Shown: piece after piece, positions 45,757 through 64,000 of the stretch
Layout of the letters: every line of letters starts with the position of its first letter
Position numbering within the stretch: position 1 is the stretch's first letter
Assembly: GCA_028554795.2 (NCBI GenBank)
Contig: CM068825.1
Location: forward strand, 158,105,053 to 158,169,052
Length of the DNA stretch: 64,000 nt
Origin: Sinohyriopsis cumingii
Taxonomy: Eukaryota > Mollusca > Bivalvia > Unionida > Unionidae
Reading direction: 5' to 3'
The notes under the pieces: model-generated
Told to the model about the DNA's origin: nothing
The model's database searches: none
The model's input: only the letters and a program-made list of their open reading frames with translations
Program-made: the position numbers and the translations under genes

Positions 45757-45917
45757 TGCAGAAGTTATTGTCCTTACCCAAACACGTTGGTTTATAGCTG
45801 AAGTTACTGTCCTTACCCAAACACGTTGGTTTATAGCTGAAGTTACTGTCCTTACTCAAACACGTTGGTTTATAGCTGAAGTTACTGTCCTTCCCCAAAC
45901 ACATTGGTTTATAGCTT
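45757..45917. repeat. 39-bp minisatellite, 4 copies
   Basis: The unit contains GAAGTTACTGTCCTTACCCA and AACACGTTGGTTTATAGCT. The period of 39 keeps frame, giving a 13-residue repeat peptide on the minus strand that is an artefact. Confidence 0.95.
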
Positions 45918-46212
45918 TTCATTCTGTCCATATACTGATAAATCAGACGTTAATCTGAATACCTTCAACGACGAACTGAAGCGGAAGTTTTTGTCAAAGG
46001 TTATCCGTTTTTTTTTTATTTTGTTGGTTGTAATTTTTGAAAGGCTGGACTGTACAAAGCAACATGCAATGGGTCACATATTTCACTTCCGAATCCGCAT
46101 CAGTGACACATTTACTCACTGTGCGCTGTCAGCTAAATACACAGACAACCACATCATGCTCTTATTCCTAATAATAATCATGATAATTACTTTAATACCA
46201 AGAATGCCTCTA

Positions 46213-46510
46213 CCACTCGGGTGGCCTAAGTGGTTAGAGCGTCGTCCTCGGATCCGGGAGGTCGCGGGTTTGGATTCTGGTCGACTCATGCCAAAGACTT
46301 TTAAAAGTGGTACTAGAAGCTGCCTTGCTTGGAACTCGGGATTAAGAGGTTAGAGCTAGGACTGATTGGCCTGGTATCAGGATAATGTGAATGGGCGGGA
46401 CATTATGCTACATGTCTTCAGCATGCTGCCACAGTGCTAGACATCACTATAAACTGCCACACTGCAGACATCATAGCAATATGACTGAAGAATTGTTAAA
46501 GCTACGTAAG
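46213..46510 (+). mobile_element. tRNA-derived SINE (family A), full-length copy
   Basis: A box GGTGGCCTAAGTGGTTAGAG and a decayed B box (GGTTTGGATTCTGG) are followed by the same body as 18645-18962: GACTGATTGGCCTGGTATCA, GTGAATGGGCGGGACATTAT, and the end CATAGCAATATGACTGAAG. It lies just left of the virus-like element. Confidence 0.85.
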
Positions 46511-46520
46511 TAGTAAGGTG

Positions 46521-46690
46521 GGTCACCCTAGCCTCAATGGGAATTATCATTACAGAGACCCCTGGGTCACTCTAGCCTCAGTGGAAATTTAACATGGAGA
46601 AAAATCGTGGGTCACTCTAGGCTCAAGGGGAATTTAACATGGGAAAAAGTTTTGGGTCACTCTAGCCTCAAGGGGAATTGAACATGGGAT
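46521..46690. repeat. About 45-bp tandem repeat, 4 copies
   Basis: Each unit starts GGGTCACTCTAGCCTCA and continues with GGGGAATTTAACATGGG before an A/T-rich spacer. It sits between the host SINE and the A/T-rich left border of the virus-like element. Confidence 0.85.
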
Positions 46691-46768
46691 TTTTTTTTTT
46701 TAATTTTTTTTTTTAAATTTAAATCTAAATTTAAATTTAAAAAAAGGGGTAGGCAATTGAAAAGTCAT

Positions 46769-46806
46769 TCTCTTTTCGAGAAATATGGCTGGCCCTGAAA
46801 AGGGCC
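46769..46806 (-). terminator. Histone-type mRNA 3' stem-loop and downstream element (minus strand)
   Basis: On the minus strand, CCCAAA is followed by a perfect 6-bp stem with a 4-base UUUC loop (GGCCCTTTTCAGGGCC, 46791-46806), then AGCCA (46786-46790). A purine-rich AAAAGAGA lies 14 bases downstream (46769-46776). This is the arrangement of metazoan replication-dependent histone genes: SLBP binds the stem-loop and U7 snRNP pairs with the downstream element. It lies 24 bases past the stop codon of the 77-codon gene. Confidence 0.85.
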
Positions 46807-46830
46807 TTTGGGTTTATGTTAATGTATTCA

Positions 46831-47064
46831 TTAACATAAAGGGCACCGCATTGGTCTTCTTCTTGTCCTTAGGCTGCGTCTCACTGTTGGTCCGTAAATC
46901 AGCACTCTTTTCAGGCATCCTTGTCTCTCTACGTAGATCCTACGTATCCACAGACTGGTGTTTGTCCTGTGGACAACGGTCCACTTGGATCGGACATACA
47001 TGAGCATGTCCGTCCGGAACATCATGGAAGACACAAGCGTAGAAGAGTGCACATCGATCCACAT
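46831..47064 (-). CDS. Small basic protein of the divergent pair, unknown function
   Basis: A 77-residue protein, start ATG at 47064 and stop at 46831, with about 30 bases of leader after the probable cap site and a short 3' UTR ending in a histone-type stem-loop. The sequence is Arg-rich in its second half (WIRRIYVERQGCLKRV, then RRSLRTRRRPMRC) and has several Met and Val in the first half (VHSSTLVSSMMFRTDMLMYV). I do not recognise the family. A vague resemblance of the VHSSTLVSS stretch to the first loop of H2B is too weak to call. The gene is supported mainly by its flanking TATA box and 3' signal. Its small size and unusual composition leave open that the real product differs. Confidence 0.5.
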   Translation of the reverse strand: MWIDVHSSTLVSSMMFRTDMLMYVRSKWTVVHRTNTSLWIRRIYVERQGCLKRVLIYGPTVRRSLRTRRRPMRCPLC

Positions 47065-47108
47065 CTTGAAGCGACGAGAACAGGTGAATCAATGCACTGA
47101 ACTGCGCT

Positions 47109-47236
47109 TATTTATAGGTAGAGGTAGGATTGAAACGGATTGAGTTCATTCACCAATCCAAACACGCGTTACAAAATTCAGTCAGCCCGCATCCAATCCG
47201 AAGAGAGCAGTCTGTGACGTCAGTTGGTCTATATAG
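47109..47236. promoter_or_regulatory. Bidirectional promoter with two CCAAT boxes, CRE and two TATA boxes
   Basis: On the minus side, CTATAAATA (47109-47117) sits about 45 bases from the ATG at 47064. On the plus side, CTATATAG (47229-47236) sits about 48 bases from the ATG at 47284. Between them are CCAAT at 47153-47157 and 47193-47197 and a full palindromic CRE, TGACGTCA, at 47215-47222. Divergent genes sharing CCAAT boxes is the layout of H2A-H2B gene pairs. Confidence 0.75.
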
Positions 47237-47283
47237 ATTCGTTAGCGCTTGTGTGCAGTCAATCTATGCGACAGTGATTCAAC

Positions 47284-47865
47284 ATGACGGAAATTCAGAA
47301 AACGATCCATTGGGGTGCACCAACAGGGGAGACTGCCCAAGGGAACCCGGACTTACTTTCAGAAGAGGTGAATTGGGATTTTGTGGATTTTCTCTCCTCG
47401 CAAGAATTTGTTGCGGAACCTTCGTTACCTTCTTCATTACCGCAAGTGGAGAATTTTAGACAGAGACAGAAAGAAGAATTGGAGAAATTTATACAACGAC
47501 AAAAGGAAGCGGAACAAGCATTTCTCCTACAGCAACAGCAGCAAGAAGAAGAGGTAAGAAAAAAACAACAGCAACAACAGCAAGAAGAAGAAGTAGCAGC
47601 AAAGAAACAAGAGGGTGAAAATCAAACGATCACGGTACTGTTGGACATTTTAGCGGAGTTAAGAAGTCTGAAACAAATGTATCAGACTTCTTTATTACGA
47701 CCGAAGAGAATACGACCTTCCCGAGCTAAACACGTCAACCCTGTGACTAAGCCTACCGTACCACCCTTAGTGATTTCAACCCAATCATCATTATCAACAT
47801 TACGCAGTCCAGAAGTAGGCCTTGGCCGTGGCAAAGGCTTAAGACAGTTAAAGTTGATTGCTTAA
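47284..47865 (+). CDS. Gln/Glu-rich coiled-coil protein with histone-type 3' end, unknown function
   Basis: A 193-residue intact frame with ATG 31 bases or so after the probable cap site. Residues 1-55 are acidic with aromatic residues (EEVNWDFVDFLSS). Residues 55-110 form a strong Gln/Glu/Lys coiled coil (ELEKFIQRQKEAEQAF, Q-runs). Residues 113-130 are a Leu-rich helix (ITVLLDILAELRSLKQMY). The C-terminus is basic and Ser/Pro-rich (LLRPKRIRPSRAKHV). There is no signal peptide or membrane segment. It could be a structural, scaffold or nucleoprotein component, but I do not recognise it. It is the plus-strand partner of the divergent pair and is followed 28 bases after its stop by a histone stem-loop, with no poly(A) signal seen. 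Confidence 0.7.
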   Translation: MTEIQKTIHWGAPTGETAQGNPDLLSEEVNWDFVDFLSSQEFVAEPSLPSSLPQVENFRQRQKEELEKFIQRQKEAEQAFLLQQQQQEEEVRKKQQQQQQEEEVAAKKQEGENQTITVLLDILAELRSLKQMYQTSLLRPKRIRPSRAKHVNPVTKPTVPPLVISTQSSLSTLRSPEVGLGRGKGLRQLKLIA

Positions 47866-47892
47866 ACTCACCCCTACACCATAAAGAAAAAA

Positions 47893-47930
47893 GGCCCTTT
47901 TCAGGGCCACCCACATTTCTCGAAAAGAGA
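47893..47930 (+). terminator. Histone-type mRNA 3' stem-loop and downstream element (plus strand)
   Basis: AAA precedes a perfect GGCCCT-TTTC-AGGGCC stem-loop (47893-47908), followed by ACCCA (47909-47913), the canonical cleavage-site flank. AAAAGAGA (47923-47930) lies 14 bases downstream and is complementary to the CUCUUU core of metazoan U7 snRNA. It matches the replication-dependent histone consensus at essentially every conserved base. Confidence 0.9.
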
Positions 47931-48156
47931 TAGCCTTTCAATTTGCCAATAACTCAAAAAAACCCCCACCCATTTTACCCTTATAGTACGTGTCTGTGTA
48001 TGAGTGCGTGAGTGTAGCTTCTTATTTTAAAATCAAAACTCAAAGACACTTACCTTATATCATTAATTTATTCTTTTATCCATTGTTACAATCCAATTCA
48101 CAATTCACAACACAACACTTTAATTAAAAGTTCATTGACTTCTTCTGTCTCCTTGT
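47931..48156. other. Short intergenic segment with minus-strand poly(A) signal
   Basis: Non-coding sequence between the convergent ends of the coiled-coil gene and the zinc-knuckle gene. It contains AATAAA on the minus strand at 48067-48072, 85 bases past the minus-strand stop at 48157. Confidence 0.7.
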
Positions 48157-48611
48157 TTAGTCTCTCTGTTTTTTGAATTTTTTCACCGTCACACTCTTTT
48201 CCTCTTCTTCTTCCTCCTCCTCGCTTTCTTCCCTTCTTCTTTTTCTCTCCTGTTTCTTTTTCTTCACCTGTCTTCTTTCTTCCTCAGAAGAATCCCTCTC
48301 TTCTTCTGAAGAATTCCTTTTTTCTTCTGATTCCTCTTGTTTCTTTTTTGGGCAATCTGGAGACCAATGTCCTTTTTCTTTACAATAATAACAGGTATCT
48401 TGACTTCTGTCTTTTTTAGTCCCTGTTTTTTTCTTTTTTGACGGTCTGGACACTCTGAAGACCAATGCCCTTTCTTCTGACAGATATAGCAAGTATCTTG
48501 ACTTTTATCTCGAAAGGAAGGAGAGTAGTCCGTGGGCTGGTCTGAAGAGAATTTTCTAATGACCCCTCGCAAAGCTCTGACGAAACGTTCGATTTGGTTA
48601 GTCTCCTCCAT
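48157..48611 (-). pseudogene. Two-knuckle CCHC zinc-finger protein, frameshifted
   Basis: The start ATG at 48611 is chosen because TATA (48666-48676, minus) lies about 60 bases upstream; the in-frame ATG at 48659 would fall in front of or at the cap site. The first frame gives a short helical N-terminus (EETNQIERFVRALRGVIRKF) and knuckle one, CYICQKKGHWSSEC. A 1-base shift in the A-rich run near 48425-48435 moves coding to the other frame. That frame holds knuckle two, CYYCKEKGHWSPDC, then a Ser/Glu-rich acidic stretch and a Lys-rich tail. CCHC knuckles bind single-stranded nucleic acid. The two repeats around the knuckles are near-identical, so one arose by duplication. The homopolymer shift could be an assembly error. 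Confidence 0.7.
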
Positions 48612-48665
48612 CGTTGTGCTCGGCTTGAGAGTGAAATGAATAGTGAAAGGACAAGACACACACCC

Positions 48666-48700
48666 TTTTTATATACGCTGGTCTGCCATGACTATAAATT
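48666..48700. promoter_or_regulatory. Divergent TATA promoters for zinc-knuckle gene and polymerase
   Basis: On the minus strand GTATATAAAAA spans 48666-48676. On the plus strand CTATAAATT spans 48692-48700, 47 bases before the polymerase ATG at 48747. The two TATA boxes are only 15 bases apart. Confidence 0.7.
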
Positions 48701-48746
48701 AGTCTATGGTGTTTAAACTTGAGTCATTTGACGTTTTGCACTCAAG

Positions 48747-51700
48747 ATGAAACGATCCTATTCATTCGAGAAGAAAGAAGAAGAAGAAAGTAAGAGGCAG
48801 AAACGTGATCTATCGCCTCGTACCAGGGCTGAAATCTTGGCACAAATTCATGCCAGTGATTTTGAAGAGGACATGAGTGAACCAGAATTTGAAACCTCTA
48901 AACCAAGTTCGCCACCCTTAGTCAACCCTGAAAAATACTATTCCATTCGAGAGACGGAAAAGCGCTCCTCTAGAAAATTTAGAACCACGGCTTACACCTA
49001 CACGGTGAAGTTTAAAGATTTCAAGGCCGACGTACCCTTGGAGAAAGCAGAAGGGTTTATCACCGAGATGTGGGATTCTTTGCTCACCGCACTCAAGCGA
49101 CAATGTCAACCCAAAGAAGACGATCGCTTGACACTATCCATAGATCACGACGGTTTGAAATCCCCTGTTTGGATCGAGTTTAGCAGACCCGCAGAACTAA
49201 CCCCTTCCAAAGTCATGGACAAGATTCAACACGTACAACAATCTAATGACCAGTTTGACATCACTGATGGTAAAGCCACACTGAAAATGGCCCACGTCTC
49301 TCCTCCTCAAGGGACTGGACGCAAAAAGATGTTATTGGTGGACGACCTTCGCAACACCAAAACAAGTCTCGTCCGAATTAACAACCCTCAAGACCAGATG
49401 TTTAGCTCGAGCCATCGTGGTGGGACGAACCTATGCCAACAAGAACGACACGACAGAATGGAAAAGAGCCTGGAAAACTATTCAACAATCGGACCGAGCC
49501 AAACAATGAAACGAAGCAGAACTCCTGTTGCAACAAGCTGGTCTGTCCAAAGACACACCCTGTGGCATTCCTGAGATGCAAAAATTGCAAGATGCCCTAG
49601 CTCCACGCTACACCTTGAAAGTGCACCCTCAAGAAATGCGCGGGCCTCTGTTGTTTCGAGGCCAAGAATTTAAGGACGGAAAATACATTCACCTTTATCA
49701 TCACGATGAACATTTTGATACCATTACCAGTATCACTGGATTCCTGGGATATGTTTATTATTGTGAGAAATGTGACTATGGTTATAATAATCGAGAGCAA
49801 CACAAACATTGTGGATGGAAATGCCCAGGATGTTTGGCCTCTCCACCCTGTCTGAGCGAAGAACCAGTGCCTTGTTCAACTTGTCTGCGCACGTTTGTTA
49901 GCTCTACCTGTTACCAACAACATTTGAAAACACAAGGTTCACAGAAGAAATGTGCTTGTCAACACCTGAGATTGTGCCCTACGTGTGGACAAGGCATACT
50001 TACCAATAATGCCAAGGCACACGTATGTCGAGGAAAGAAAAAATGTCACATTTGTCACCACATCGTGGACTTGGAACACCAATGCTACGTGCAAAAATAC
50101 CAACCCCCACGAGAGAAAGAGGACGGTCACAAGAAGAAAGGCAATTTCATCTTTTTCGATTTCGAATGCATGCAAGAGACCGGCATTCACATTCCTAATT
50201 TTTGCGTGGCTCATCGAGCGTGCGAGAAGTGCATTCAAGAACCTATCTTCAGTCATTGCCCTCACTGCAGCAAGATTCCTGGAGGGCGTGAAAAAATCTT
50301 TCGGGGACCAAACACGTTAGCCGATTTTGCCCGATGGGTTTTAGACCCCATCGACAAGACGTGGAGCCAAGAGGACATCGAACGTTATGGAGATTGTCAT
50401 CGTCATGCCACGGTGATGGCTCACAATTTCTCCGGATACGATGGACAGTTTCTTCTCAGATACTATACGGAACAAGGCACCGAACGTCCTAAAGTGACTT
50501 TGAACTGAGCCAAAATCATTCTCATGCAAGTGGGACAAGTGCAGTTTAAAGATTCGATGAGCTATTTGGCCATGCCTTTGAGTCGAATGCCTAAAACGTT
50601 TGGAATGACAGAAATGGCTAAAGGGTACTTTCCACACTTTTTCAATACGGAAGCCAATCAACACGCCGTTCTACCCCATTTACCTGAGGCTCACTATTAC
50701 GACCCCGACAACATGCGTACCGAACAACGAGAAGCTTTCTACGCTTGGTACCAGGCTCATGCCTCTGACCCCTTCGACTTTCAGGAAGAAATGTTAAAGT
50801 ATTGTCGTTCCGACGTGGACATTTTACGACGTTGCTGTGGAAAATTTCGAGAACTGTTCATGGAACACGGAGGGGTCGATCCTTTGAAAGAAGCTTGCAC
50901 CATTGCCAAAGCGTGTTCCTTAGTGTATCGCCAACGATTCATGCCTGAAAACACCGTGGCTGTCATCAGTCCTCAAACGACCCACTATGTCAAGCGTCAA
51001 TACTCGGTCAAAGCCCTACGTTGGTTACATTACTTGTGCGACAAGGAAGATAAATGGATTCAGCATGCCCGCAACGGAGGAGGCGAAAAGACCATTGGAA
51101 CGTATTCGGTCGATGGCTGGGACTTAGAAAACCCCAAGATCGTGTACGAGTTTAACGGTTGCTTATTTCACGGATGTCCCGTCTGCTACCCTGACCGTGA
51201 CACTAAAAATCAGTTTTTACAACGGACCATGGAAGACCTGTACCATCACACTTGTCAGCGACGCCTAAAGTTGGAACAGGAAGGATACCAAGTGGTGGAA
51301 ATGTGGCAACACGAGTACGATCACCGTATGAAAACCGATCCCGAGTTTAAACGCCTCGTGGAAAGTTACCAGTTCATGGACCCGCTGAACCCGAGGGATA
51401 GTTTGTACGGAGGAAGGACCAATGCCACCTGTTTGCTGTACCAAGCCGACGAAGAGAAAGGAGAAGAAATCAAATACTTGGACGTGTGTTCGCTGTATCC
51501 CTACGTGTGCAAATATTGTCGCTTTCCCGTAGGGCACCCGCAATTGCTGACGGAACACATCGACCTGAAAAACATTCGACAATACGAAGGCTTGATCAAG
51601 TGTAAAGTTTTGCCTCCCACGAACCTATACCATCCCGTCTTACCTCAACATTGTCAAGGCAAACTGATGTTTCCATTGTGCCGTACTTGTGCCGAAACGT

Positions 51701-52796
51701 GCAACCATGACCAACCTTGTCAGCACACCCAGGAAGAACGTGCCTTGACGGGAACCTGGGTCAGCGTAGAATTGTTCAAAGCTCTGGACATGGGATACCA
51801 ACTGTTAGAAGTGTACGAAATTTGCCACTTTCCCAAGACACAACAATACCACAAGGGTGACCCAGTCAGAAAGGCATTTTCGCTGACTACGTGGATGCCT
51901 TTTTGAAACTGAAGCAAGAAGCCAGCAGCTATCCTTCCTGGTGTCACACTCCCGAAGACCAAATACAATTCAAAGAGAAATACTACGAACAAGAAGGCGC
52001 CTCTTTAGACCACATCGAAAAAAACGAAGGCAGGCGATCGTTTGCCAAAGTGATGTTAAATTGCTTGTGGGGTAAAATGGCACAACGACCGTGTTTACCC
52101 AAGACGGAATATTTGACAGAACCTTCCCGCTACTTCCAGATGATTCACGACAAAACCAAATACATGAAACACGTGGACGTCGCTCGCGAGGATTTAATCT
52201 TGGTCAATTACGAAGACGATCTGGACTTTGTACAAGACGACCCTTTTGGAAATGTCATCATTGCGGCTTACGTGACAGCCCATGCTCGCTTAAAATTGTA
52301 CGAAGCTTTAGAACTGTTAGAAGAACGCGTCCTGTACTTTGACACGGACAGTTGCATTTACATCCATCACCCGATTCAACATCACCCTGACATCGAAGGA
52401 GACCGTTTAGGAGCCTGGACAGACGAGCATCCCGACGACAAGATTCTAAGTTTCGTCAGTGGCGGTCCCAAAAATTACGGCTACGAATACCGTGACAAAC
52501 AAGGAGAAGTGCACACGACGTGCAAAGTGAAAGGACTGACTCTGAATCATCGTACCAGTCGAGTGGTCAACTTTGGGGTATTGAAAGAAGCCTTGCAATC
52601 GGGAGAGGATGCAAACTTTAAAGTGACCACTTACCAACCGAACAAGATTGTACGTTTACCCACTCACCACATCGTCAGTCGGCCCTTGGAAAAAGTCTAT
52701 CAAATCGTGCACCAGAAGCGAGTGAGACTTCCCAATCACTTTACGTTGCCGTACGGTCACGTCGGTATTGGTCTGTATATAAAAAAGGAACCCTAG
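48747..52796 (+). pseudogene. polB: Protein-primed DNA polymerase B of the Maverick-like element, four lesions
   Basis: A polymerase of roughly 1,350 codons that replicates the element from a protein primer. The N-terminal ~230 residues are Lys/Glu-rich, then a conserved block (WIEFSRPAELTPSKV). Next comes a Cys/His-rich segment with many CxxC pairs (49750-50100), probably zinc-binding. The exonuclease follows: FIFFDFECM (Exo I), AHNFSGYDGQFLL (Exo II) and YCRSDVDIL (Exo III, 50803-50829). The palm has motif A YLDVCSLYP, motif B AKVMLNCLWGK and motif C YFDTDSCIYI, all with catalytic residues present. Lesions are a frameshift near 49395-49402, TGA at 49507, TGA at 50506 and a frameshift near 51870-51890. 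With these, no full-length protein is possible from this copy. Confidence 0.93.
52776..52786 (+). promoter_or_regulatory. TATA box for the BIR gene, inside the polymerase 3' end
   Basis: TATATAAAAAA overlaps the last codons of the polymerase (stop 52794-52796) and lies 56-66 bases before the next ATG at 52842. Confidence 0.75.
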
Positions 52797-52841
52797 GCAA
52801 GATCGATAGTTCATTGTGACTACCAAGACCGAGCGAACAAG

Positions 52842-53487
52842 ATGAATACTTTCAGAGAAACACAAAACAAGTTGTTTAGAAAGGCACAATTCAAGTGTGG
52901 GGCTTCGGAAGTGGAATGCGATTGTGAGCCTTGTGATGGATACGATGCTGTACCTTGTGACCTGAGCGATGCCGTAAAGCATCATGGGAACTTTAGTGTC
53001 ACTACCCCTATCATGGAAAGTGATGCTGTGCGTGTCAAACCTGAGGGATGCGAAAGGGATGCCGCTCGTCCTCTTGGACATTTTACTGGGTTTCGTTTTA
53101 AAGGGGAATGTTCACCTTCACGTCTACCCCCCCCCCCCCTACGGATGTCATCCAGCCCTGAGCAAACTTCTGTTCCTGTCACCCAACCCTTATCGAAACG
53201 AACCTGTGAAAGACGAATATTCGTTTCCTGTGCGTTTGTCGGAATACTGCGACTTTGAAAATCGTCTTCAATCGTTCAAAGGAAAATGGCCTAAGTATCT
53301 GGGAGGACCGACTCCCGAAGAATTAGCCAGAGCCGGATTTTTCTACTTGGGCGAAGGAGATAAAGTCAAGTGCTTCAGTTGCGGTGTGTCACTTCACCAC
53401 TGGGAACCGCAAGATTCAGCCTACGTAGAACATGCTCGATGGTCACCGAATTGTCATTACTTACTCTTAGTGGGACCGAGACATTGA
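52842..53487 (+). pseudogene. BIR-domain (IAP-like) protein, frameshifted in a poly-C run
   Basis: A start ATG at 52842 fits the TATA box at 52776. The first ~95 codons (Cys-rich DCEPCDGYD, then Val/Pro-rich) end in a run of 13 C at 53127-53139. Coding continues in the other frame to 53487 with one complete baculovirus IAP repeat: FENRLQSFKGKWPKYL, then the zinc-binding Cys-x2-Cys (KCFSCG), His (VEHARWSPNC) and final Cys with normal spacing. BIR proteins bind caspases or other apoptotic partners; here the inferred role is blocking host cell death. There is no RING finger. The frame change sits exactly on the homopolymer, so it may be real slippage or a base-calling error. Confidence 0.8.
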
Positions 53488-53513
53488 AGTAACTTTACCA
53501 TAATAATCTGTTC

Positions 53514-53969
53514 ATGAATACTTTACAAGAGAACATTCGTGCTTTGCCTGTGGAGTTGAGAGAACGCATTTACCGAGAGCTGGTCAAAATACAAGTGAAA
53601 CGTAAAGAACAATTGCATCCGTTACGTCACCGGTGTTTGAACCACTGGTACCTGAAGGCTATACAAAGACTGATTCAATTGAAAGTGTTCCATCGGACAG
53701 ACATTGATGAACGATCCTATAGTTTTAAAAAGGATTGGTTTGTTATGGACGATTCTACCTACATCATTGTAAACTTACTGCAACGAATTCCAGAGGAAGA
53801 GTTAACGAATTACCAACATCTTGAACACAATGTCAACTTAGTGAAAGAGGAAACTTCTGAACGAATTGTAATGTGTAAATTAGTGACTAAACGATTTAAA
53901 TTCGACACTGAAGTAAAACCATGTTTGTGCAAACAGTACATTTCTTGTGTCAGACCAAAGAGAATTTAG
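53514..53969 (+). CDS. Small protein with LPVELRERIY motif, paralogue 1
   Basis: An intact 151-residue frame starting at ATG 53514, 27 bases after the BIR gene. It starts NTLQENIRALPVELRERIYR, a helical motif reminiscent of F-box or BC-box type adaptor segments (Leu-Pro-x-Glu-Leu/Ile). It continues as HRCLNHWYLKAIQRLIQLKV and a more hydrophilic C-terminus with NVNLVKEETSERIVMCKLV. There is no membrane segment. A broken tandem paralogue follows. If the F-box-like reading is right, it could recruit host ubiquitin ligase machinery, but this is speculative. Confidence 0.65.
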   Translation: MNTLQENIRALPVELRERIYRELVKIQVKRKEQLHPLRHRCLNHWYLKAIQRLIQLKVFHRTDIDERSYSFKKDWFVMDDSTYIIVNLLQRIPEEELTNYQHLEHNVNLVKEETSERIVMCKLVTKRFKFDTEVKPCLCKQYISCVRPKRI

Positions 53970-53981
53970 TATGACCTATTC

Positions 53982-54501
53982 ATGGATACTTTGCTAGAGA
54001 ACATTCGTACCTTGCCTGTGGAGTTGAGAGAAAGGATTTACCGAGAGCTGGTGAAAATACAAGTGAAACGTTTAAGAACAATTGCATCTGTTACGTCACC
54101 AGATTTTTAACCACTGGTACCTGAATGGTATAAAAGAACTGATTCGTCAGAAATTGTTTCAGTGGTCAGACCTTGTTCAATACTTCCAGGCCCCCGATGA
54201 TCCACGTGTTGATCATTTTGGTTACTTCGAGATTCACCTAGTACAACACATTGAGGAAGACAAGGTAAAGGATTACAGACATATTTTACGTGGAATCTAC
54301 TTAGCGGAAGAGGAAACTTCTAAACGAAGTCTGACGTTTCAGTTACAGTATGTAACATTTAAATTCCCTACTGGAGAACGAACGTGTTTGGTTAGAAATT
54401 ACCTTTATTGCTTCCGAAACAAAGACACTATAAAATCAAGTTGCCATGCCACGGATTATGTCACATATCATTCAACAGATTCCGTGGAAGGTACTCAATG
54501 A
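53982..54501 (+). pseudogene. Paralogue 2 of the LPVELRERIY protein, frameshifted
   Basis: The ATG at 53982 opens DTLLENIRTLPVELRERIYR, about 80% identical to the previous gene. After KVKR a 1-base shift near 54070 sends the frame to a stop, while the homologous text continues in the other frame to 54501 (IFNHWYLNGIKELIRQKLF; GIYLAEEETSKRSLTFQL). The nucleotide identity between the two copies is highest in the first 90 bases. A TATA-like CTATAAAATC at 54429 lies inside its 3' part. Confidence 0.7.
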
Positions 54502-54670
54502 CCATATTCAAACCGTGGATCAATACCATCGATTATTACAAGAATTTTATTCATTCAATTTGGGACGACAAGTGGTGTGTGTCTTAGTGACTTGTTTTCT
54601 GGGATTTCGTTTACCAGCCGATTCTTTGTGGACTCTTTACGATCAGTACTTACCACCTCAATGGCCTTAA
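54446..54670 (+). CDS. Short protein related to the paralogue cluster
   Basis: A 74-residue frame, ATG 54446, overlapping the end of paralogue 2 in another frame. The sequence IIQQIPWKVLNDHIQTVDQY resembles the middle segment of the two preceding proteins, followed by a hydrophobic stretch VVCVLVTCFLGFRLP. Its stop overlaps the start of the next gene (ATGGCCTTAA at 54661). It may be a truncated third paralogue. Confidence 0.45.
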   Translation: MPRIMSHIIQQIPWKVLNDHIQTVDQYHRLLQEFYSFNLGRQVVCVLVTCFLGFRLPADSLWTLYDQYLPPQWP

Positions 54671-55171
54671 ATGGTCACGAAAAACTCCTTTTGCTCAAAG
54701 CCTTGCGTTTTCATCTGGATACTTCTCGACCTCAACAGGAAAAAAAGATTCGTCAACTTTTAGCTACCCAAGACGTGTATGACGATGTGTGTGTAGCTTG
54801 TGACTTACATCCCCATTGGACAGATGTCCGTGCCTGGAAAGAATGGGGTTTTGAGGCTTGGACCCAAGAAGTGGCCCAGTATGCACGAGAGTTGTTCAAG
54901 GAAAAAAGTTACTTTTCAACCCGTGTTAGTGACGGTGCCAGAAGAACCCGTCACCCAGGACAGGACTGTCGTGGACAGGCCTGAAAGACCCTTTCGGGAG
55001 GACACTTGTGTGACCTTACCCCCTACTATAGAACTGGTTAGAACATTACCCAAAACATGTTGTTGTACAGACACTTGTTTTTATTCCACGTTAATAGTTA
55101 TCATGTGCCTTTTATCCTTGTACTTAAGCCTTTGGCTTTTATGTATTTTTGTCTTTCGTATTCATGTTTGA
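54661..55171 (+). pseudogene. C-terminally membrane-anchored protein, frameshifted
   Basis: Starts ATGGCC at 54661. The first frame (to 54984) is soluble and Trp/His-rich (HPHWTDVRAWKEWGFEAW). At the A6 run near 54902-54907 the coding-like text moves to the frame ending at 55171. That frame has a Pro/Thr/Arg linker (VPEEPVTQDRTVVD), a Cys cluster (TCCCTDTCF) and one strong C-terminal membrane helix (STLIVIMCLLSLYLSLWLL). This is the layout of a tail-anchored or type II-like membrane protein, with AATAAA at 55185. No homologue is recognised. The homopolymer shift may be an error. Confidence 0.6.
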
Positions 55172-55184
55172 AAAAAAAACATTC

Positions 55185-55190
55185 AATAAA
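55185..55190 (+). terminator. Poly(A) signal AATAAA after the membrane protein
   Basis: AATAAA 14 bases after the stop at 55171, followed by GTGTTCTG. It closes the 52.8-55.2 kb gene cluster. Confidence 0.75.
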
Positions 55191-55207
55191 CGTGTTCTGA
55201 AAAAAGT

Positions 55208-55215
55208 ATATAAAC
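55208..55215 (+). promoter_or_regulatory. TATA box for the packaging ATPase
   Basis: TATATAAA 46 bases before the ATPase ATG at 55261, directly after the preceding poly(A) signal. Confidence 0.8.
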
Positions 55216-55260
55216 TCTTGTCTTGTTTGTTTTCGTGTCACAAGTGACATTTCTGACACA

Positions 55261-56004
55261 ATGGCTACCTCTGCTGTCTCTGCTCCCTCTTCCTTTACTG
55301 TCAAAGTCATCGACGAACACTTAGATCGTGCCAGTTGGGAGGCTTTGTATCTTCGCCATCCCTTTAACATGCTCATTCCTGGACCTAGCGGTTCAGGCAA
55401 AACCGAATTCGTCAAACGTTTGATCGAACATAAACATCATTTGATCGATCGGCCACCTCAACGGATCGTGTGGTGTTACAAAGAGTGGCAATCGGCGTAC
55501 AACCTCTTGCGAGAAAGTCAAGGCGATTCCATCGTGTTTGTGGAAGGCATTCCTAAAGAAGACGACGGCATCGTCTCTGACTCCCGTCTAACCCATTTGG
55601 TCATTTTTGACGACATGTTAGGAGAAGACGAAGAAGAAATTAAACTGTGGTTCACGCGCAAAGGGCATCACCGTAATGCCAGTGTCGTTTACATCACCCA
55701 AAATTTGTTTCAACAAAGTAAAGCCCATCGCACCATCAGTCTCAATGCGCATTACGTGGTCTTGTTTAAAAGCCCTCGAGATAAATCGCAAGTGCAAGTC
55801 TTAGCCAAACAGTTAGGAACGCCTTGGCTGACTCAGGCGTACGACGATGCCACTCAAACTCCACACGCCTATTTACTCGTCGATTTCAAACCTACTACCC
55901 CCGAGGATTTGCGATTTCGTACCCACTTGTTTCACCACTGGTGCCAAGACGGAGGGCCTGTCCTGTACACGTCTCCGTCCTCGACTTCATTTCACTCCCC
56001 ATAA
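55261..56004 (+). CDS. Genome-packaging ATPase (FtsK/HerA type, A32-like)
   Basis: An intact 247-residue frame. This ATPase pumps the DNA genome into the preformed capsid. The Walker A P-loop GPSGSGKT lies at residues 41-48. Walker B is the hydrophobic strand LVIFDDML at about 113-120 with its Asp pair. A sensor-like strand VVYITQNLF lies at about 142-150 with the Gln/Asn typical of this family, and SLNAHYVVLFKSPRDK follows. The length fits Maverick and adintovirus ATPases (about 220-260). It has its own TATA box, and its stop is followed after eight bases by the next TATA box. There are no lesions. Confidence 0.92.
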   Translation: MATSAVSAPSSFTVKVIDEHLDRASWEALYLRHPFNMLIPGPSGSGKTEFVKRLIEHKHHLIDRPPQRIVWCYKEWQSAYNLLRESQGDSIVFVEGIPKEDDGIVSDSRLTHLVIFDDMLGEDEEEIKLWFTRKGHHRNASVVYITQNLFQQSKAHRTISLNAHYVVLFKSPRDKSQVQVLAKQLGTPWLTQAYDDATQTPHAYLLVDFKPTTPEDLRFRTHLFHHWCQDGGPVLYTSPSSTSFHSP

Positions 56005-56011
56005 AAAAATC

Positions 56012-56018
56012 TATAAAA
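56012..56018 (+). promoter_or_regulatory. TATA box for the first basic protein
   Basis: TATAAAA just after the ATPase stop, 45 bases before the ATG at 56057. Confidence 0.75.
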
Positions 56019-56056
56019 ACCTCAGACCCTTTTCGTCTGTCTCACACAGTGTAAAC

Positions 56057-57001
56057 ATGACGTCCCTTCAGTCGCATCTTCCCGTCAAATTGATTCGTGC
56101 CTTGTATGGCATCAGTCGAGAAAAAAATCCACAAACACGAACTCGTGTCTTAGAAGCTAGTCTCAAAGAAGTCTTACGATGGTTCACGGTGACGGCACGT
56201 CAAATACTCCAAGGAATCATTCAGATTCCTCATCAAACCAAACGCTTTTTCGATCGAAACAAAGTCGCTTTGGTCCAACTGGCCGATCCCCGCATCGACA
56301 CTCAAACCAAAAAACAAATCATTTTGAAACCTGGAGGGAGCGGTACTCTAGGAGGCGTCATCATTCGCTCACTCTTAAGATGGGATCCTAATGCCCCCAA
56401 AGTTATCCCCAAGGAAAAAGTCCAACGAAGCCCCAAGAAGAAAAAGACCAAGTCCCCAAGGAGAACTTCTCCAGTGGCGGGACCCTCCTCTGACCAGACA
56501 CCACCCCGGAAAAAGAAAAGAAGCCCCCAGAAAAAGAAACAGAGAAAAAGTCCCCAGAAAAAGAAAAGTCCACAGAAGAAAACTAGTCGCAAGAGAGGCA
56601 CTTCGGCCAGGACGCAACCTTACACTCGCAAACCACGACCTGCCATGTCGGTGACTGTGTCTCCGGCAGCCTCACGTTTATCCACTTCTCCGTTGATGAC
56701 ACCAGGAACTGAAGAGTACTTGGAGACGTTGATCACACCAAGAACTTCTCCGTTGATGACCCCCAAAAGAACTTCCCCAGTGGCAGGACCCTCCAATTTT
56801 GTGGCAGTGGCTGCTGCTCACAAAGTACCTTCTCACAAAATCAAAGTCCATGAAAGATCGGACATGTTAGAAAGTTTATTGGATTTGTCCAAGCAAGAAC
56901 TGGCTCGATTTAGTCCGTTGCGTACACCTGCACGACGTGTCATGCCTGTCCTCAAACTGATACGACGTAAAGACAATCAGTGGCGACGCGTTCCAGTATA
57001 A
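56057..57001 (+). CDS. Large basic protein (core/nucleoprotein-like), paralogue of the next gene
   Basis: Intact, 314 residues from ATG 56057; the upstream in-frame extension to 55847 overlaps the ATPase and precedes the TATA box, so I reject it. Residues 40-105 (SLKEVLRWFTVTARQILQGI, then LADPRIDTQTKKQIILKPGG) align in pattern with residues 45-105 of the following gene. Residues 125-195 are extremely Lys/Arg/Pro/Ser-rich, like histone H1 tails or adenovirus core proteins. The repeats TSPVAGPS and SPLMTP occur twice each. The C-terminal 40 residues are again structured (MLESLLDLSKQELARF). It probably condenses genomic DNA in the virion. The SP/TP motifs suggest phosphorylation. The function is inferred. 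Confidence 0.75.
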   Translation: MTSLQSHLPVKLIRALYGISREKNPQTRTRVLEASLKEVLRWFTVTARQILQGIIQIPHQTKRFFDRNKVALVQLADPRIDTQTKKQIILKPGGSGTLGGVIIRSLLRWDPNAPKVIPKEKVQRSPKKKKTKSPRRTSPVAGPSSDQTPPRKKKRSPQKKKQRKSPQKKKSPQKKTSRKRGTSARTQPYTRKPRPAMSVTVSPAASRLSTSPLMTPGTEEYLETLITPRTSPLMTPKRTSPVAGPSNFVAVAAAHKVPSHKIKVHERSDMLESLLDLSKQELARFSPLRTPARRVMPVLKLIRRKDNQWRRVPV

Positions 57002-57006
57002 AAAAA
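56997..57006 (+). promoter_or_regulatory. TATA box overlapping the upstream stop codon
   Basis: TATAAAAAAA includes the TAA stop (56999-57001) of the previous gene and lies 58-67 bases before the ATG at 57064. Confidence 0.75.
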
Positions 57007-57063
57007 GGTGTGTGACCAAGTCGGGGGTATCAGTGTTTTTTTGGTGCTCCTGAAGACTCAAAG

Positions 57064-57519
57064 ATGTCACCCTCCAGAAAACCCCAAGGAAAGAAAAGGA
57101 AAGGACTACCACCACGTTTAGTCAAACATGGGGACATGTTATCTGTCCTGTCCAAAGCTTCTTCACCTCTACGAAAAAAACTCATTCAATCGGCCTCCAA
57201 AGAGGTCATCGATACCGTGTGCGAATGTTGTTTGAATGTTTTGAAAGGCACGATCCCTTTGTCCAAACACCAGAAACAATGCTTAAGCAAACATCGTCAC
57301 GTTCTTCGCCAAATGGTTCGAAAGAAAATTCCCATTCGTCAAAAGAAGAAGATGTTAGTGCAACATGGAGGCATTTTTCCCTCTCTTGTTAGGCCCCATA
57401 CTGAAAGGAGTCTTGGGAACCATGTTGGGAGGTCTGGTGGGAGCAAGATAAAAAGGCCCTCGGAAGTCCCAAGATCTCAGAATCGACCCCTGACAACCCC
57501 ATGGAAGGACAAAAACTAG
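57064..57519 (+). pseudogene. Small basic capsid-core protein, C-terminus frameshifted
   Basis: ATG 57064. The Lys/Arg-rich N-terminus is followed by the conserved core SKEVIDTVCECCLNVLKGTI and KHRHVLRQMVRKKIPIRQKK, ending HGGIFPSL. This block (basic helices closing in a Gly-Gly and hydrophobic Gly-rich tail) recurs in Maverick/adintovirus-like elements. From about 57385 the frame runs into unrelated text to 57519. The expected Gly/Leu-rich tail (GPILKGVLGTMLGGLVG) is read in the neighbouring frame, ending at a stop near 57450. So there is a 1-base lesion and the open frame's last 40 codons are spurious. It is probably a DNA-binding or membrane-active core protein. Confidence 0.7.
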
Positions 57520-58214: not shown

Positions 58215-58227
58215 CACACAAAAAAAA

Positions 58228-59338
58228 ATGGAAAAAGTCTTAGCCAGCATTTATTACGATCCCTCCCATCCTGCAGGTTACGCAGGAGTTCAAAAATTGT
58301 ATCGTGCTGCCAAAACTCGACTGAAAAGTCTCCGTTTACCTCAAGTGCAGCGATGGTTACAAGAACAAGCTACCTACACTTTACACAAACCCATTCTACG
58401 CAAGTTTGCCAGAAGTCGCACCCGAGTGGAAGGCATCGATCATCAATGGCAAGCCGATTTAGCCGATGTCTCTCATTTGGCCAGCTACAATCGTGGCTAC
58501 AAATATGTTTTGTGTCATCGACGTCTTTTCCAAATTTGCCTGGGTCGTGCCCTTGACTTCCAAATCCAGCAGCGAGTTAGTACGAGCCCTGCAACGGGTG
58601 TTGAAACAAAGCGGTCGTCACCCTCTTCGATGGCAAACGGACAAAGGCACCGAATTTCTGAACCAAGCTTTCCAAAAAGAATTAAAGAAACGTGACATTC
58701 ATTTTTTTACCACCGAGAATCCCGAAACCAAAGCCAGCATCGTGGAACGTTTTCAACGCACTTTGAAAGAACGCATGTGGAAATATTTTACGCATCACCA
58801 CACTCTGAAGTACATCGACATCTTACCGCACCTGGTGCAAGCGTACAACCAATCTTACCATCGAAGCATCGGACGTGCCCCACAAGACGTGATTCCCGAC
58901 AACGAAGTGTTGGTATTTGAGCGAATGTTTGGTACGTCCCCGACGAGGGCTGTCCCCAAGAAAAGTGGAGAGTTGGCCGTAGGAGATTGGGTGCGCATTG
59001 GCAAAACCAAACGCACTTTCGACAAAGGTTACTTACCTAACTGGACGACCGAATTGTTTCGCGTCACTGGACGAGTGCATGGCCGTCATCCTGCCGTCTA
59101 TAAATTGGAAGACATGAACGGAGAAGTGCTCAAAGGAACGTTTTATTTGCCCGAGTTACAACGTGTCACCAAAAAAGAAGACGACGTGTACGACATCGAA
59201 AGCATTCTCGAACGCAGAACCCGTAAAGTGGGCAAACGACGTGTCAAAGAAGTCAAAGTACGTTGGAAAGGATATCCACCCAGTTTCGATTCTTGGATCG
59301 ACGCTTTGCAAGTCATCGACTATAAAAAGAAGAAGTGA
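58228..59338 (+). pseudogene. Retroviral-type integrase with C-terminal chromodomain, one frameshift
   Basis: ATG 58228 follows an A9 run. The N-terminal helical domain (YYDPSHPAGYAGVQKLYRAA) lacks a clear HHCC zinc finger. The catalytic core has Asp in HQWQADLADV, Asp in RWQTDKGTEF and Glu in SIVERFQRTL, the DDE triad with normal spacing. A C-terminal beta domain follows, then a chromodomain (YDIESILERR, KVRWKGYPPSFDSWID) that could target integration to modified chromatin. A frameshift near 58510-58520, between the first Asp block and the VIDVFSKFAW strand, splits the gene into 58228-58695 and 58466-59338. It integrates the element into host DNA; this copy cannot make the full enzyme. Confidence 0.92.
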
Positions 59339-59343
59339 CCATC

Positions 59344-60694: not shown

Positions 60695-60697
60695 GTC

Positions 60698-61115: not shown

Positions 61116-61128
61116 AACACAGAAAAAA

Positions 61129-62451
61129 ATGATGCACCGAGAGTCTTGCGCTTGTTCCAAGTCGGAACTGGATCTGTTTGCCATGCCACCCACCATGATG
61201 ACCATGCAAGAATCCCAATGGGTGGAATTTCATCCCGTCTCCTCATTGACGGATTCCGCTCCCATCGAGTTTGAAATCAAAGGACAGCCCGAAGATTACA
61301 TCGATCTGAATAGCAGTTACTTGTACTTGAAAGTGAAAGTGATCAAAACGGACAACACCAATCCAGGAGGCGATGCTAGAGTAGCTCCTGTCAACAATTT
61401 CATGCATTCCTTGTTCAGCGAAGTGGACTTGTACTTGAATAACAAACTGGTCAGTAGCAGCATGGATACTTACCCATATCGTGCCTACTTGGAAAATCTC
61501 TTGACGTACGGAAAAGAAGCCAAGAATACTCATCTGGATGCTTGCGTGGTATGGAAACCTGACACGGCAGGTGAGAACACGTTTAGCGATACGGCCCTGA
61601 CAGTAGATGACAATCCTCACAATGTGGGGTTTAACGACCGTCGTAAAAAAATTCTGCAAGGGCGAAGTTTAGAACTGATGGATCGTTTGCATTTGGACAT
61701 GTGGTTACAAGAAAAGTATTTGCTGAACAGGGTGGATATCCGTCTGAGACTGAATCGTAGCAGTGCCAATTTCCATTTGATGGCCAATGACAACGAATAC
61801 AAAACTATCATTCAAGAAGCCCTACTTTACGTGCATCGTGTGGAATTGTTACCTAAAGTGGGAAACGACGTCAGTCAGACGTTGAGCAGAACGACTGCCA
61901 AGTATCCGATACGACGCGTAGAAGTGAAAACCTTCACCATTCCTGCTGGACAGCGATCCATGATCGAAGATCATCTGTTCCAAGGACAGCTACCCAAACG
62001 TTTAATCCTTGGTATCGTCAAGAATTCAGCCTTCAGCGGAACCCACAATCAAAATCTTTTTGAGCTTCAACATTACAATGTGTCCAAGATTGAAGTCAGT
62101 CGTGATGGCAAGACCTTGTGTACCCGACCCTTTGAGCCCAACTTTACCCAGAAGAATTATTTGAGATCGTACTTGTCCCTGTACGACGCCACGGGACAGT
62201 TAGGAACCAACACCAGTCACGGCATTACGTAAGAGGATTATGCAGGAGGCTATGCTTTGTGGGGTTTTGATTTCACTCCTGACCAAGGCAGCGACGAGGG
62301 ACATTTCCATCCTATAAAATCCGGGCAGATTCGTGTGGAACTTCAGTTTGCAAATCCACCTCCAGATCACACAGTGAACGTCATCCTGTATGCAGAATTC
62401 GATAATACCATAGAAATCAACAGTTTGAGAGAAGTTATTCTAGATTACTAG
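61129..62451 (+). pseudogene. Major capsid protein (double jelly roll), one in-frame stop
   Basis: ATG 61129, total span 440 codons, matching the Maverick/adintovirus major capsid, which trimerises into pseudo-hexameric capsomers. Typical first-barrel text is IEFEIKGQPEDYIDLNSSYL, LYLKVKV and PVNNFMHSLFSEVDLYLNNK. Later come GRSLELMDRLHLDMWLQEKY, the second-barrel start LLNRVDIRLRLNRS, KTFTIPAGQ and RPFEPNFTQKNYLRSYLSLY. TAA at 62230-62232 stops the frame, which then continues unshifted to 62451 (GYALWGFDFTPDQGSDEGHF; YAEFDNTIEINSLREV). Only this one nonsense codon breaks it. As read, the product lacks the last ~72 residues of the second barrel. Confidence 0.92.
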
Positions 62452-62456
62452 AAGCC

Positions 62457-62942
62457 ATGGAAGACTGTTATCCCTCTTTATCTAGTGGAGAAACTTTGGA
62501 CATGAAATGTGAGGAGACCGTGGAAAAAGAAGAAGTGTTCATGATGAAGTCAAGATGGCCAGAACATGAAGCCCATTTAGTCTCCTGTTTTGCCAAACAC
62601 TTGGTGGAAAAAATGACGGAATTGATCAAGAAAAATTGTTATGGATGTCAAAACGATCATCCCAGTCAAATTCAACACGATAAATGCCTGATGCTGAGTC
62701 AAGAAGAAAAATTGGACGAGTATCTGGACGAGGCTTGGAGTCTCATCTCGGACAAAGACGTGTTGCACCAGTGGTATAAAGACTTGCGTGAACATTCTTG
62801 TCCACCATTAACCACTCACGAGATCCATCGTATCGAAGCTCTCCTGAATCAGAGTGAGGAAACAGAACGAATAACCGTTTATTCGTCAGACATTTTCAAG
62901 CAAAAAGTCAGGATCGAATTGACAACGTATTATTACCTGTGA
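62457..62942 (+). CDS. Conserved Cys/His protein of Maverick-like elements, unknown function
   Basis: An intact 161-residue frame, ATG 62457, five bases after the capsid stop. The middle contains KKNCYGCQNDHPSQIQHDKC, a compact Cys-x2-Cys-x3-His...His-x2-Cys arrangement that suggests a zinc site. It is flanked by acidic helices (LSQEEKLDEYLDEAWSLISD). I recall this CYGCQxxHPSQ signature in Maverick-like loci of invertebrates, where the protein has no assigned role. A TATAAAA at 62313 within the capsid gene could drive it. Confidence 0.75.
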   Translation: MEDCYPSLSSGETLDMKCEETVEKEEVFMMKSRWPEHEAHLVSCFAKHLVEKMTELIKKNCYGCQNDHPSQIQHDKCLMLSQEEKLDEYLDEAWSLISDKDVLHQWYKDLREHSCPPLTTHEIHRIEALLNQSEETERITVYSSDIFKQKVRIELTTYYYL

Positions 62943-62971
62943 AGAAGAAGAAAAAAAACACACACAAATCA

Positions 62972-63532
62972 ATGGATACCTGGGAACTTTATTACCTTTT
63001 GAACCACAGTTCGTATACGGCTTCTTGGAATCCTGTCGTCTGTGCTAAAGATGAACTCCCTCATCGCAAACCTAAAGACCATCAAGCTTACGTGATCAAC
63101 ACGGACGACAGTCATCTCCCAGGAACCCACTGGGTAGCCGTCTACTTTCCTCAAGAAGGATGTGTGGAATATTTCGATTCGTACGGATTGCCCCCTTTGG
63201 AAGACGATATCATTGAATTTATGAGAAGAAATGCTCAGACCATCCGATTCAATAATGTGAAATTACAAGGCATAGATTCCTTGGTGTGTGGACAGTACTG
63301 TGTGTATTTTCTGCATCATCGCAGCCTGGGCTATTCCTTAGAACATTTAGTGACTCATTTTGATCCTCGTTCTTCTACTAGAAACGATGTGAAAGTAGAT
63401 CGATGGTTTTGTGACCATTATGCTTATCTTTTGTCTCAAGCTAGGAAACGTAGTGTCCATCAATGGCCTAATGATTTCCAACAGTGGAAATCACAATTTA
63501 ATTCACAACGTTGTCAGCCCTGTTTAAAGTAG
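62972..63532 (+). CDS. Adenain-like cysteine protease (maturation protease)
   Basis: An intact 186-residue frame from ATG 62972; the in-frame upstream GTG at 62939 overlaps the previous stop and an A-rich leader, so ATG is preferred. It cleaves capsid and core precursors during virion maturation. The catalytic His is at residue 53 (GTHWVAVYF), the acidic partner Asp at about 69 (VEYFDSYGLPP), the oxyanion Gln at about 99 (KLQG) and the nucleophile Cys at 110 (VCGQYCVYFL). All are present and correctly spaced. The length matches adenovirus and Maverick proteases (about 180-205). An AATAAA follows at 63643. Confidence 0.92.
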   Translation: MDTWELYYLLNHSSYTASWNPVVCAKDELPHRKPKDHQAYVINTDDSHLPGTHWVAVYFPQEGCVEYFDSYGLPPLEDDIIEFMRRNAQTIRFNNVKLQGIDSLVCGQYCVYFLHHRSLGYSLEHLVTHFDPRSSTRNDVKVDRWFCDHYAYLLSQARKRSVHQWPNDFQQWKSQFNSQRCQPCLK

Positions 63533-63642: not shown

Positions 63643-63648
63643 AATAAA
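63643..63648 (+). terminator. Poly(A) signal AATAAA after the protease
   Basis: AATAAA 110 bases after the protease stop, followed by a TGTTGTGTTT-type downstream element. Confidence 0.7.
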
Positions 63649-63740: not shown

Positions 63741-63984
63741 ATGACACTCACTGAACGTTGCGGCTCGAAAACCGTGTGGGGATGTTTTCCTTCACGTCCG
63801 CGCTTTGACTTTAAGAATCGGGGGTTGTTTCCAGTCTAACCATCCATTGTCGACTCATCCTCCTAAGAAGATGTGTTCCAAACTAGCTAAGCTCAACGAA
63901 GCCTACGTGAATTTGCATAGGGTCAGACAGTCTGATACCGAAGCCAGAAGAAATAGAGAATGTGAGAATGTTAAAAGTCACTGA
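63741..63984 (+). CDS. Possible further small gene at the right edge, two short frames
   Basis: CTATAAGA at 63701 could be a weak TATA box. ATG 63741 opens 32 codons (TLTERCGSKTVWGC) and stops at 63839. ATG 63871 in another frame opens 37 codons, helical and charged (SKLAKLNEAYVNLHRVRQSD), and stops at 63984. They may be two halves of one frameshifted gene or two tiny ORFs. No family is recognised. The element clearly continues past the window. Confidence 0.3.
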
Positions 63985-64000
63985 AGACCTGATAGAAGAG

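Follow-up and report, generated by a model that had tools for sequence, protein, structure and literature searches.

Why should genes of a virus-like element end in the manner of histone genes? The question is raised by a divergent gene pair in a 64,000-nucleotide (nt) stretch of the bivalve Sinohyriopsis cumingii (assembly GCA_028554795.2, contig CM068825.1, positions 158,105,053 to 158,169,052 of the forward strand; hereafter the window), in which an earlier note, made from the letters alone, had recognized two 3' ends of the replication-dependent histone type. The answer favored here, to which we assign a probability of roughly 0.85, is that an element of the Polinton/Maverick type took over histone-gene signals of its host for its terminal accessory genes, which would be run as replication-dependent histone genes. 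The signals, their position at gene ends, their likeness to those of the host, and a conservation exceeding that of the adjacent 3' untranslated region (UTR) were observed directly; from them we infer actual processing of the transcripts, S-phase timing, and a benefit to the element. Beyond the earlier note, the left stem-loop was placed in the terminal inverted repeat (TIR) of the element, three more genes with similar ends were identified at its right end, and a promoter element of host histone genes was found there.

To our knowledge, animals are considered to reserve the poly(A)-free mRNA ending for histone genes. The U7 RNA of the host pairs with the histone downstream element. According to PMC2781718 (2009), histone pre-mRNAs carry a stem-loop and a purine-rich downstream element and are cleaved between the two, and loss of SLBP leads to polyadenylated, mis-timed histone mRNA.

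Histone-type gene ends and their conservation

The left-end pair consists of ORF77 on the minus strand and P193 on the plus strand. Exact copies of the 16-mer GGCCCTTTTCAGGGCC stand at 46791-46806 on the minus strand and at 47893-47908 on the plus strand, and no further match with up to two mismatches was found in the 64 kb or in 100 shuffles. The Rfam model RF00032, with a gathering score of 34, gave 41.8 bits at 47888-47933 (+) and 33.9 bits at 46766-46811 (-), the latter 0.1 under the gathering score with an E-value of 1.4e-7 in a 1.7-kb search. Both stem-loops have an A-rich 5' flank and an ACCCA/AGCCA 3' flank, AAAAGAGA starts 14 nt past each stem, and the two gene ends form a 58-nt inverted repeat that is 86% complementary. 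The covariance search proposed in the earlier note, together with the exact matches, bears out its description of a perfect six-bp stem with a UUUC loop at the end of both divergent genes, and the flanks and the spacing of AAAAGAGA were also as it had stated them.

Three further genes of the element, R1, g102, and g200 at its right end, have histone-type ends, which brings their number to five. The right end extends into the genome directly right of the window, which is designated L039 and numbered from contig position 158169053. The stems were AGCCCU-AGGGCU in R1 and g102 and GGCUCU-AGGGCC in g200, and in six further right-end loci the stem-loops of the terminal type scored 43.8-44.5 bits. 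The leftmost and rightmost of the five stem-loops form the inner borders of the TIRs, and the other three are internal, 27-28 nt past the gene ends (the distance for R1 was read by eye). From stop codon to stem, the four intact element frames showed 20-27 nt versus 27-35 nt in four core histones. The spacing of AAAAG past the stem was 14 nt in the element, and 13 nt in two copies whose stem was read as shortened. The right-end stretch also includes AATAAA/ATTAAA in its interior (L039:446, 857, and 1881).

The host's own histone genes carry closely similar signals. Its H4 gene had 114 matches in the genome, mostly in tandemly repeated units some 8.27-8.29 kb long, and one such unit (L086) encodes H4, H2B, H2A, H1, and H3 on the same strand. 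All five end in GGYCCUUUUNAGGRCC and score 35.0-39.4 bits with RF00032, and H2B carries the exact 16-mer of the element. AAAAG follows the stem by 14 (H4), 14 (H2B), 15 (H2A), 15 (H1), and 14 (H3) nt, where the H4 value refers to a second AAAAG read by eye, the script having reported an earlier one at 3 nt. Because all five host histone genes bear these marks and the element has both the stem-loop and the downstream element at the host's spacing, its transcripts should enter the histone pathway.

A search of the 2.9-Gb host genome with RF00032, in which 75 of 589,472 first-look candidates were scored, provides a lower bound and is not a random sample; the search gave a match below the cut-off in one control genome (Lactococcus lactis). 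All 75 scored loci proved to be ends of this element family, 52 of them left and 23 right. ORF77 and/or P193 were found in 52, g102 and/or g200 in 22, and the remaining locus (L065) holds the protease and the terminal repeat. No two loci were identical, the closest (L057 and L058) being 99.8% alike, and no core histone was found within 1.5 kb of any of them by tblastn with the core histones, without H1, as queries. The terminal stem-loops of the 23 right-end loci exceed the RF00032 gathering score. Selection by the model itself was avoided in the partner ends, that is, the ends of left-end pairs not picked by Rfam, which were counted only where 100 nt of gene body was present; because they were recruited through their other end, their independence is incomplete. 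The six-pair stem was kept in 43 of 50 partner ends (23/24 for ORF77 and 20/26 for P193), and an exact AAAAG in 21/24 and 26/26, respectively. The earlier note had allowed that homologous elements might lack the stem-loop; within this genome it was present in all scored loci and in these 43 unselected ends.

Conservation in the partner ends was concentrated on the signals. For ORF77 and P193 ends, respectively, identity to the window copy was 0.996 and 0.978 in the AAA plus stem-loop and 0.979 and 0.990 in AAAAGAGA, compared to 0.873 and 0.788 in the adjacent 3' UTR, 0.907 and 0.849 in the spacer, and 0.845 and 0.860 in the last 100 coding nt. The window, L009-L038, and L039 together yielded 70 matches, 66 of them distinct, from which 60 distinct stem-loops were aligned. 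The six omitted matches are three look-alikes (L018, L019, and L038), two readings of the opposite strand (L032 and L039), and L010:1496-1551, whose stem is perfect but whose downstream element is lost. Among the 60, 98.3% of cells pair, and the outer stem pair changed from G-C to A-U in 13 with pairing kept.

The 16-mer alone was rejected as a diagnostic, because a scan of IMG/VR for AAAGGCCCTTTTCAGGGCC returned eight stretches, none of which reached the gathering score of the Rfam Histone3 model; these were taken as chance occurrences or terminator hairpins. One of the IMG/VR contigs with the 16-mer (L008) also contains two type II hammerhead ribozymes at 13-80 and 5897-5960.

The genes bearing these ends would work like histone genes and are not histone genes: no Pfam histone match was obtained for ORF77, P193, g102, or the g200 homologue P0142. 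The ratio of nonsynonymous to synonymous differences (pN/pS) of ORF77 was 0.18 against 52 copies, with frame-shifting gaps in eight and 15 stop changes counted, and the gene looks to be under purifying selection. For P193 the ratio was 0.55 against 51 copies, with frame-shifting gaps in 14 and likewise 15 stop changes counted, which suggests purifying selection less clearly than in ORF77. The promoter element and the stem-loop of the right terminus accompany no fewer than two unrelated coding families, the g200 type and one whose sequence begins MASNHLDKM, and the terminal frame is broken in several right-end loci. Public protein data held 20 homologues of P193 (E<=0.001) and four of g200, all on short contigs. 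One P193 homologue (P0020) continues into a stretch that by eye resembles the pol-upstream protein of the element. The synonymous divergence among copies was 0.40 in ORF77 and only 0.065 in the adjacent P193, with the intervening promoter 91-98% identical, a contrast that may reflect either a mosaic history or strong constraint.

A promoter element shared with host histone genes

Signals of histone genes were also observed upstream of the right-end genes. The motif GATGTTTTCCWTCACGTCCGCGCT precedes R1 and g200 (23/24 to host H2B) as well as g102 (22/24), and it occurs in the host promoters of H2B and H1 (23/24) and, at 20/24 on the reverse strand, upstream of H2A. In addition, L039:583-603 and the host H4 promoter share the identical 21-mer TTTCTTTTAGGTCCGCGCGTT. 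The common 24-mer points to a regulatory role of this sequence in the H2B and H1 promoters of the host; related sequence is present at H2A and H4. The distance from the midpoint of the motif to the start codon is 73-83 nt in the element, 93-95 nt in H2B and H1, and 71 nt in the H4 variant.

Across the 23 right-end loci, the H2B 24-mer was exact in 10, matched at 23/24 in 11 and at 22/24 in one, and was absent from L042. It was present in one of the 52 left-end loci (L080), which also holds a g200 match. The best control matches were 15/24 in window positions 1-46500, 16/24 in 46501-63532, and 15 and 14 in the flanking genome, and 200 shuffles gave at most 16/24. In local alignments, the upstream regions of g102, g200, and R1 exceeded all 100 shuffles against host H4 (for R1, 24 versus 23), H2B, H2A, and H1, and did not exceed them against H3. 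Neither the intergenic stretch between the CCHC gene and polN nor a control stretch showed similarity to the host histone promoters above shuffles. GTCCG presumably resembles the core of the site of the vertebrate H4 activator HINFP/MIZF; a literature search on this site turned up nothing. As separate observations, a single 332-aa open frame (aa, amino acids) in L042 joins the protease and g200 at a right end without the promoter element, and in L080 the g200 match adjoins the left end of an element.

The element and its surroundings

The element extends from window position 46509 to L039:2409, about 19.9 kb (Table 1). Its TIRs of 308 nt (left) and 305 nt (right) are identical at 305 of 313 positions (97%), with the target duplication included, in a blastn comparison of the left and right flanks. 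As the duplicated TACGTA is palindromic, it can be separated from the TIR only through comparison with other copies; only for the window copy was it read at both ends. Of the 75 loci, 51 could be aligned up to the end, and 49 of these show a terminal AGTAGT, with varying bases outside. The earlier note had considered that 46.75-47.95 kb might be a separate host insertion; the pair is not one, because it lies inside the TIR and target-duplication boundaries, and, in the 3 kb covered at each of the 52 left-end loci, polN was seen beside the pair in 25.

Table 1. Annotated features of the element in the window and in L039, in order from left to right.
Feature	Position	Strand	Remarks
Target-site duplication TACGTA, left copy	46503..46508		Right copy L039:2410-2415, beyond the window
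Left TIR, 5'-AGTAGTAAGG...	46509..46816		Right TIR L039:2105-2409
Downstream element, histone-downstream-like, AAAAGAGA	46769..46776	-	Left terminal gene, 14 nt past stem
Histone-type stem-loop GGCCCUUUUCAGGGCC	46791..46806	-	Ends left terminal gene ORF77; TIR inner border; 33.9 bits
ORF77, 77-aa Arg-rich protein, left terminal gene	46831..47064	-	Stop to stem-loop 24 nt
Bidirectional promoter of ORF77/P193 pair	47065..47283		91-98% identical among 18 copies compared
P193, 193-aa glutamine/glutamate-rich protein	47284..47865	+	Stop to stem-loop 27 nt
Histone-type stem-loop	47893..47908	+	Ends P193; 41.8 bits
Downstream element, histone-downstream-like, AAAAGAGA	47923..47930	+	14 nt past P193 stem
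CCHC zinc-knuckle gene, two overlapping frames	48157..48659	-	AATAAA at 48072-48067, without stem-loop; contrast gene
polN, pol-upstream gene	48747..49574	+	Adjoins the pair at other loci
Family B DNA polymerase, several broken frames here	50524..52796	+	PF03175 E 3.6e-30 (50524-51906); E 9.1e-4, below Pfam cut-off (51891-52796)
Packaging ATPase, A32/FtsK type	55261..56004	+	PF04665 E 3.9e-7
Retroviral-type integrase with chromodomain	58466..59338	+	PF00665 E 2.7e-10; PF00385 E 5.1e-7
Presumed major capsid protein, 'F54H12.2-like'	61129..62232	+	Early stop, 367 aa; most of 120 listed relatives 420-475 aa
Cysteine protease, type of African swine fever virus (ASFV) S273R/adenovirus	62939..63532	+	E 7e-5 to S273R (weak; two other matches E about 0.09); AATAAA at 63643
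Host-histone promoter element GATGTTTTCCTTCACGTCCGCGCT	63781..63804	+	Upstream of R1; 23/24 as host H2B promoter
R1, start of first right-end gene	63871..64000	+	In-frame stop in this copy; stem-loop L039:275-290
g102 (102 aa)	L039:753-1061		Stem-loop L039:1089-1104
g200 (200 aa)	L039:1491-2093		Stem-loop L039:2114-2129

The gene content is that of a Polinton/Maverick-type, adintovirus-like element. Measured against the generally known defining features of Polinton/Maverick elements and adintoviruses, it shares with them the family B DNA polymerase, the rve integrase with chromodomain, the packaging ATPase, the adenovirus/ASFV-type protease, the F54H12.2-like protein, the TIRs, the 6-bp target duplication, and a length of about 20 kb, and it differs from them in its histone-type 3' ends and promoter element. 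The F54H12.2-like protein, which we take to be the capsid protein, had 1749 homologues; among those listed, the named ones were in bivalves except for one symbiont metagenome bin. Pfam gave no match for it, and PDB none that was credible; for the cysteine protease there was likewise no Pfam match. LxCxE motifs were absent from ORF77, P193, the CCHC frames, polN, g102, and g200. The window copy is degraded, with a polymerase split over frames, a short capsid-like frame, and an in-frame stop in R1. No relatives of the element were confirmed in IMG/VR or in prokaryote genome contigs.

The signal AATAAA was found for the CCHC gene, 3' of the middle genes, and 3' of the protease; its positions at 48072-48067 (minus), 55185, and 63643 (both plus) agree with the earlier note, which had assigned it to other genes of the element. 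The polymerase, packaging, and capsid genes appear to use ordinary poly(A) signals.

Several features stand apart from these subjects. Inside the element, a gene with a BIR (inhibitor of apoptosis) domain was found at 52984-53487 (E 3.4e-24), and duplicated gene blocks at 53503-54180 are 79-89% alike. Directly outside it lies a 39-bp tandem repeat (45758-45952), and a tRNA-like sequence beside the insertion (46220-46330), judged by eye, is perhaps a short interspersed nuclear element. About 14 kb to the right of the element, at L040:7824-9003 (~158.186 Mb), a second virus-like gene group encodes a 142-aa protein and a protein of at least 245 aa, the latter capsid-like by eye.

Alternative explanations and meaning

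The likeness to metazoan replication-dependent histone genes comprises the six-bp stem, the UUUC loop, the A-rich flank, ACCCA, an AAAAGA element at host spacing, short 3' UTRs, and, for R1, g102, and g200, a promoter element found in the host histone unit; the difference is that the coding regions are not histones and lie on a dispersed virus-like element. S-phase expression of the terminal accessory genes as poly(A)-free mRNA is the simplest account of this combination. In S phase, host histone transcription factors would switch on the right-end genes, SLBP and the U7 small nuclear ribonucleoprotein of the host would cut the transcripts of all five genes just past the stem-loop, and the resulting mRNAs would lack poly(A) and last only during DNA replication. 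Both the predicted processing by the histone machinery and the predicted coupling to S phase gain independent support from the promoter element at the right end. The accessory proteins might, as a matter of speculation, prepare the cell for replication of the element or package its DNA.

Several observations weigh against this account. The window-copy stem-loops of R1, g102, and g200 scored 29.3, 31.1, and 27.9 bits, all under the RF00032 gathering score (E 3.5e-5 or better at a permissive setting over 2.4 kb), and the A-U type stem-loops of six further right-end loci, at 30.2-31.6 bits, were also under it. Ten of the 50 partner ends had fewer than six stem pairs or no exact AAAAG. Past AAAAGAGA, identity to the window copy was 0.834 in ORF77 ends and still 0.951 in P193 ends, so in the latter conservation does not end abruptly at the downstream element. 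Covariation was limited to a single pair, seen only in the R1/g102 class of ends; the change of the outer pair was therefore probably one event, and the numbers of covarying pairs and pair types were reached by 493 of 500 shuffles. The promoter of ORF77 and P193 was no more similar to host histone promoters than shuffled sequence. A host U7 was not found by the Rfam model with 65 of 801,960 candidates scored, in a search that matched in no control either. Finally, the two terminal stem-loops are also part of the TIRs, so a role at the DNA level is possible for these two.

Among the alternatives, the one that survives best accepts the histone ends as real and regards them as mere compact terminators, which confine transcripts to the element or avoid poly(A), for example to escape a shut-off of polyadenylated mRNA, with S-phase timing incidental. 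Both outward-facing terminal genes indeed end within the TIRs, and the left pair is without the histone promoter element. However, the internal genes bear the signal too, and the right-end genes have a histone promoter element for which a mere terminator has no need; we therefore regard this explanation as improbable, though it deserves to be kept in mind.

Far less probable is a purely DNA-level role of the stem-loop within the terminal repeat, such as an integrase or packaging signal or a hairpin end, with a fortuitous likeness to histone ends. Two of the five stem-loops do stand at TIR inner borders, whereas the other three are outside the TIRs just past gene ends, a downstream element follows at host spacing, and the right-end genes are accompanied by the host histone promoter element. 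Passive hitch-hiking, in which the signals are functionless remnants of a past recombination with the histone cluster, would fit the near-identity to host sequences, including the 21-mer of the H4 promoter, and the damaged signals in some copies, but it is very doubtful, as the stem-loop and AAAAGAGA are more conserved than the adjacent 3' UTR even where the ORF77 region of a copy has fallen to 76% identity, and the same signals go with unrelated coding genes.

The open-access literature searched yielded no description of viruses or transposons with histone-type ends. Animal DNA viruses have been linked to histones through the 'Histoid' genes of adomaviruses and tailtomaviruses, one of which, from a clam dataset, has adintovirus-like virion proteins, according to PMC11071296; those genes encode histone-like proteins, whereas the present element shares regulatory signals and not histone proteins.

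The acquisition of histone signals by the element may be put in a wider form, which we hold to be fairly probable. A lineage of animal DNA viruses would have made a set of its accessory genes counterfeit histone genes by copying the SLBP/U7 3' end and the promoter element alike. The S-phase machinery of the host, and perhaps the histone locus body, would then express them only during replication, and they would be the first known case of a complete histone programme in genes other than histones. If this is true, the histone 3'-end pathway can be hijacked, here by a mobile element of viral type with copies of both the switch and the ending of host histone genes, and the element provides a natural test of what histone signals suffice for. 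It would also suggest how Polinton-like viruses could time their expression to the DNA replication of the host.

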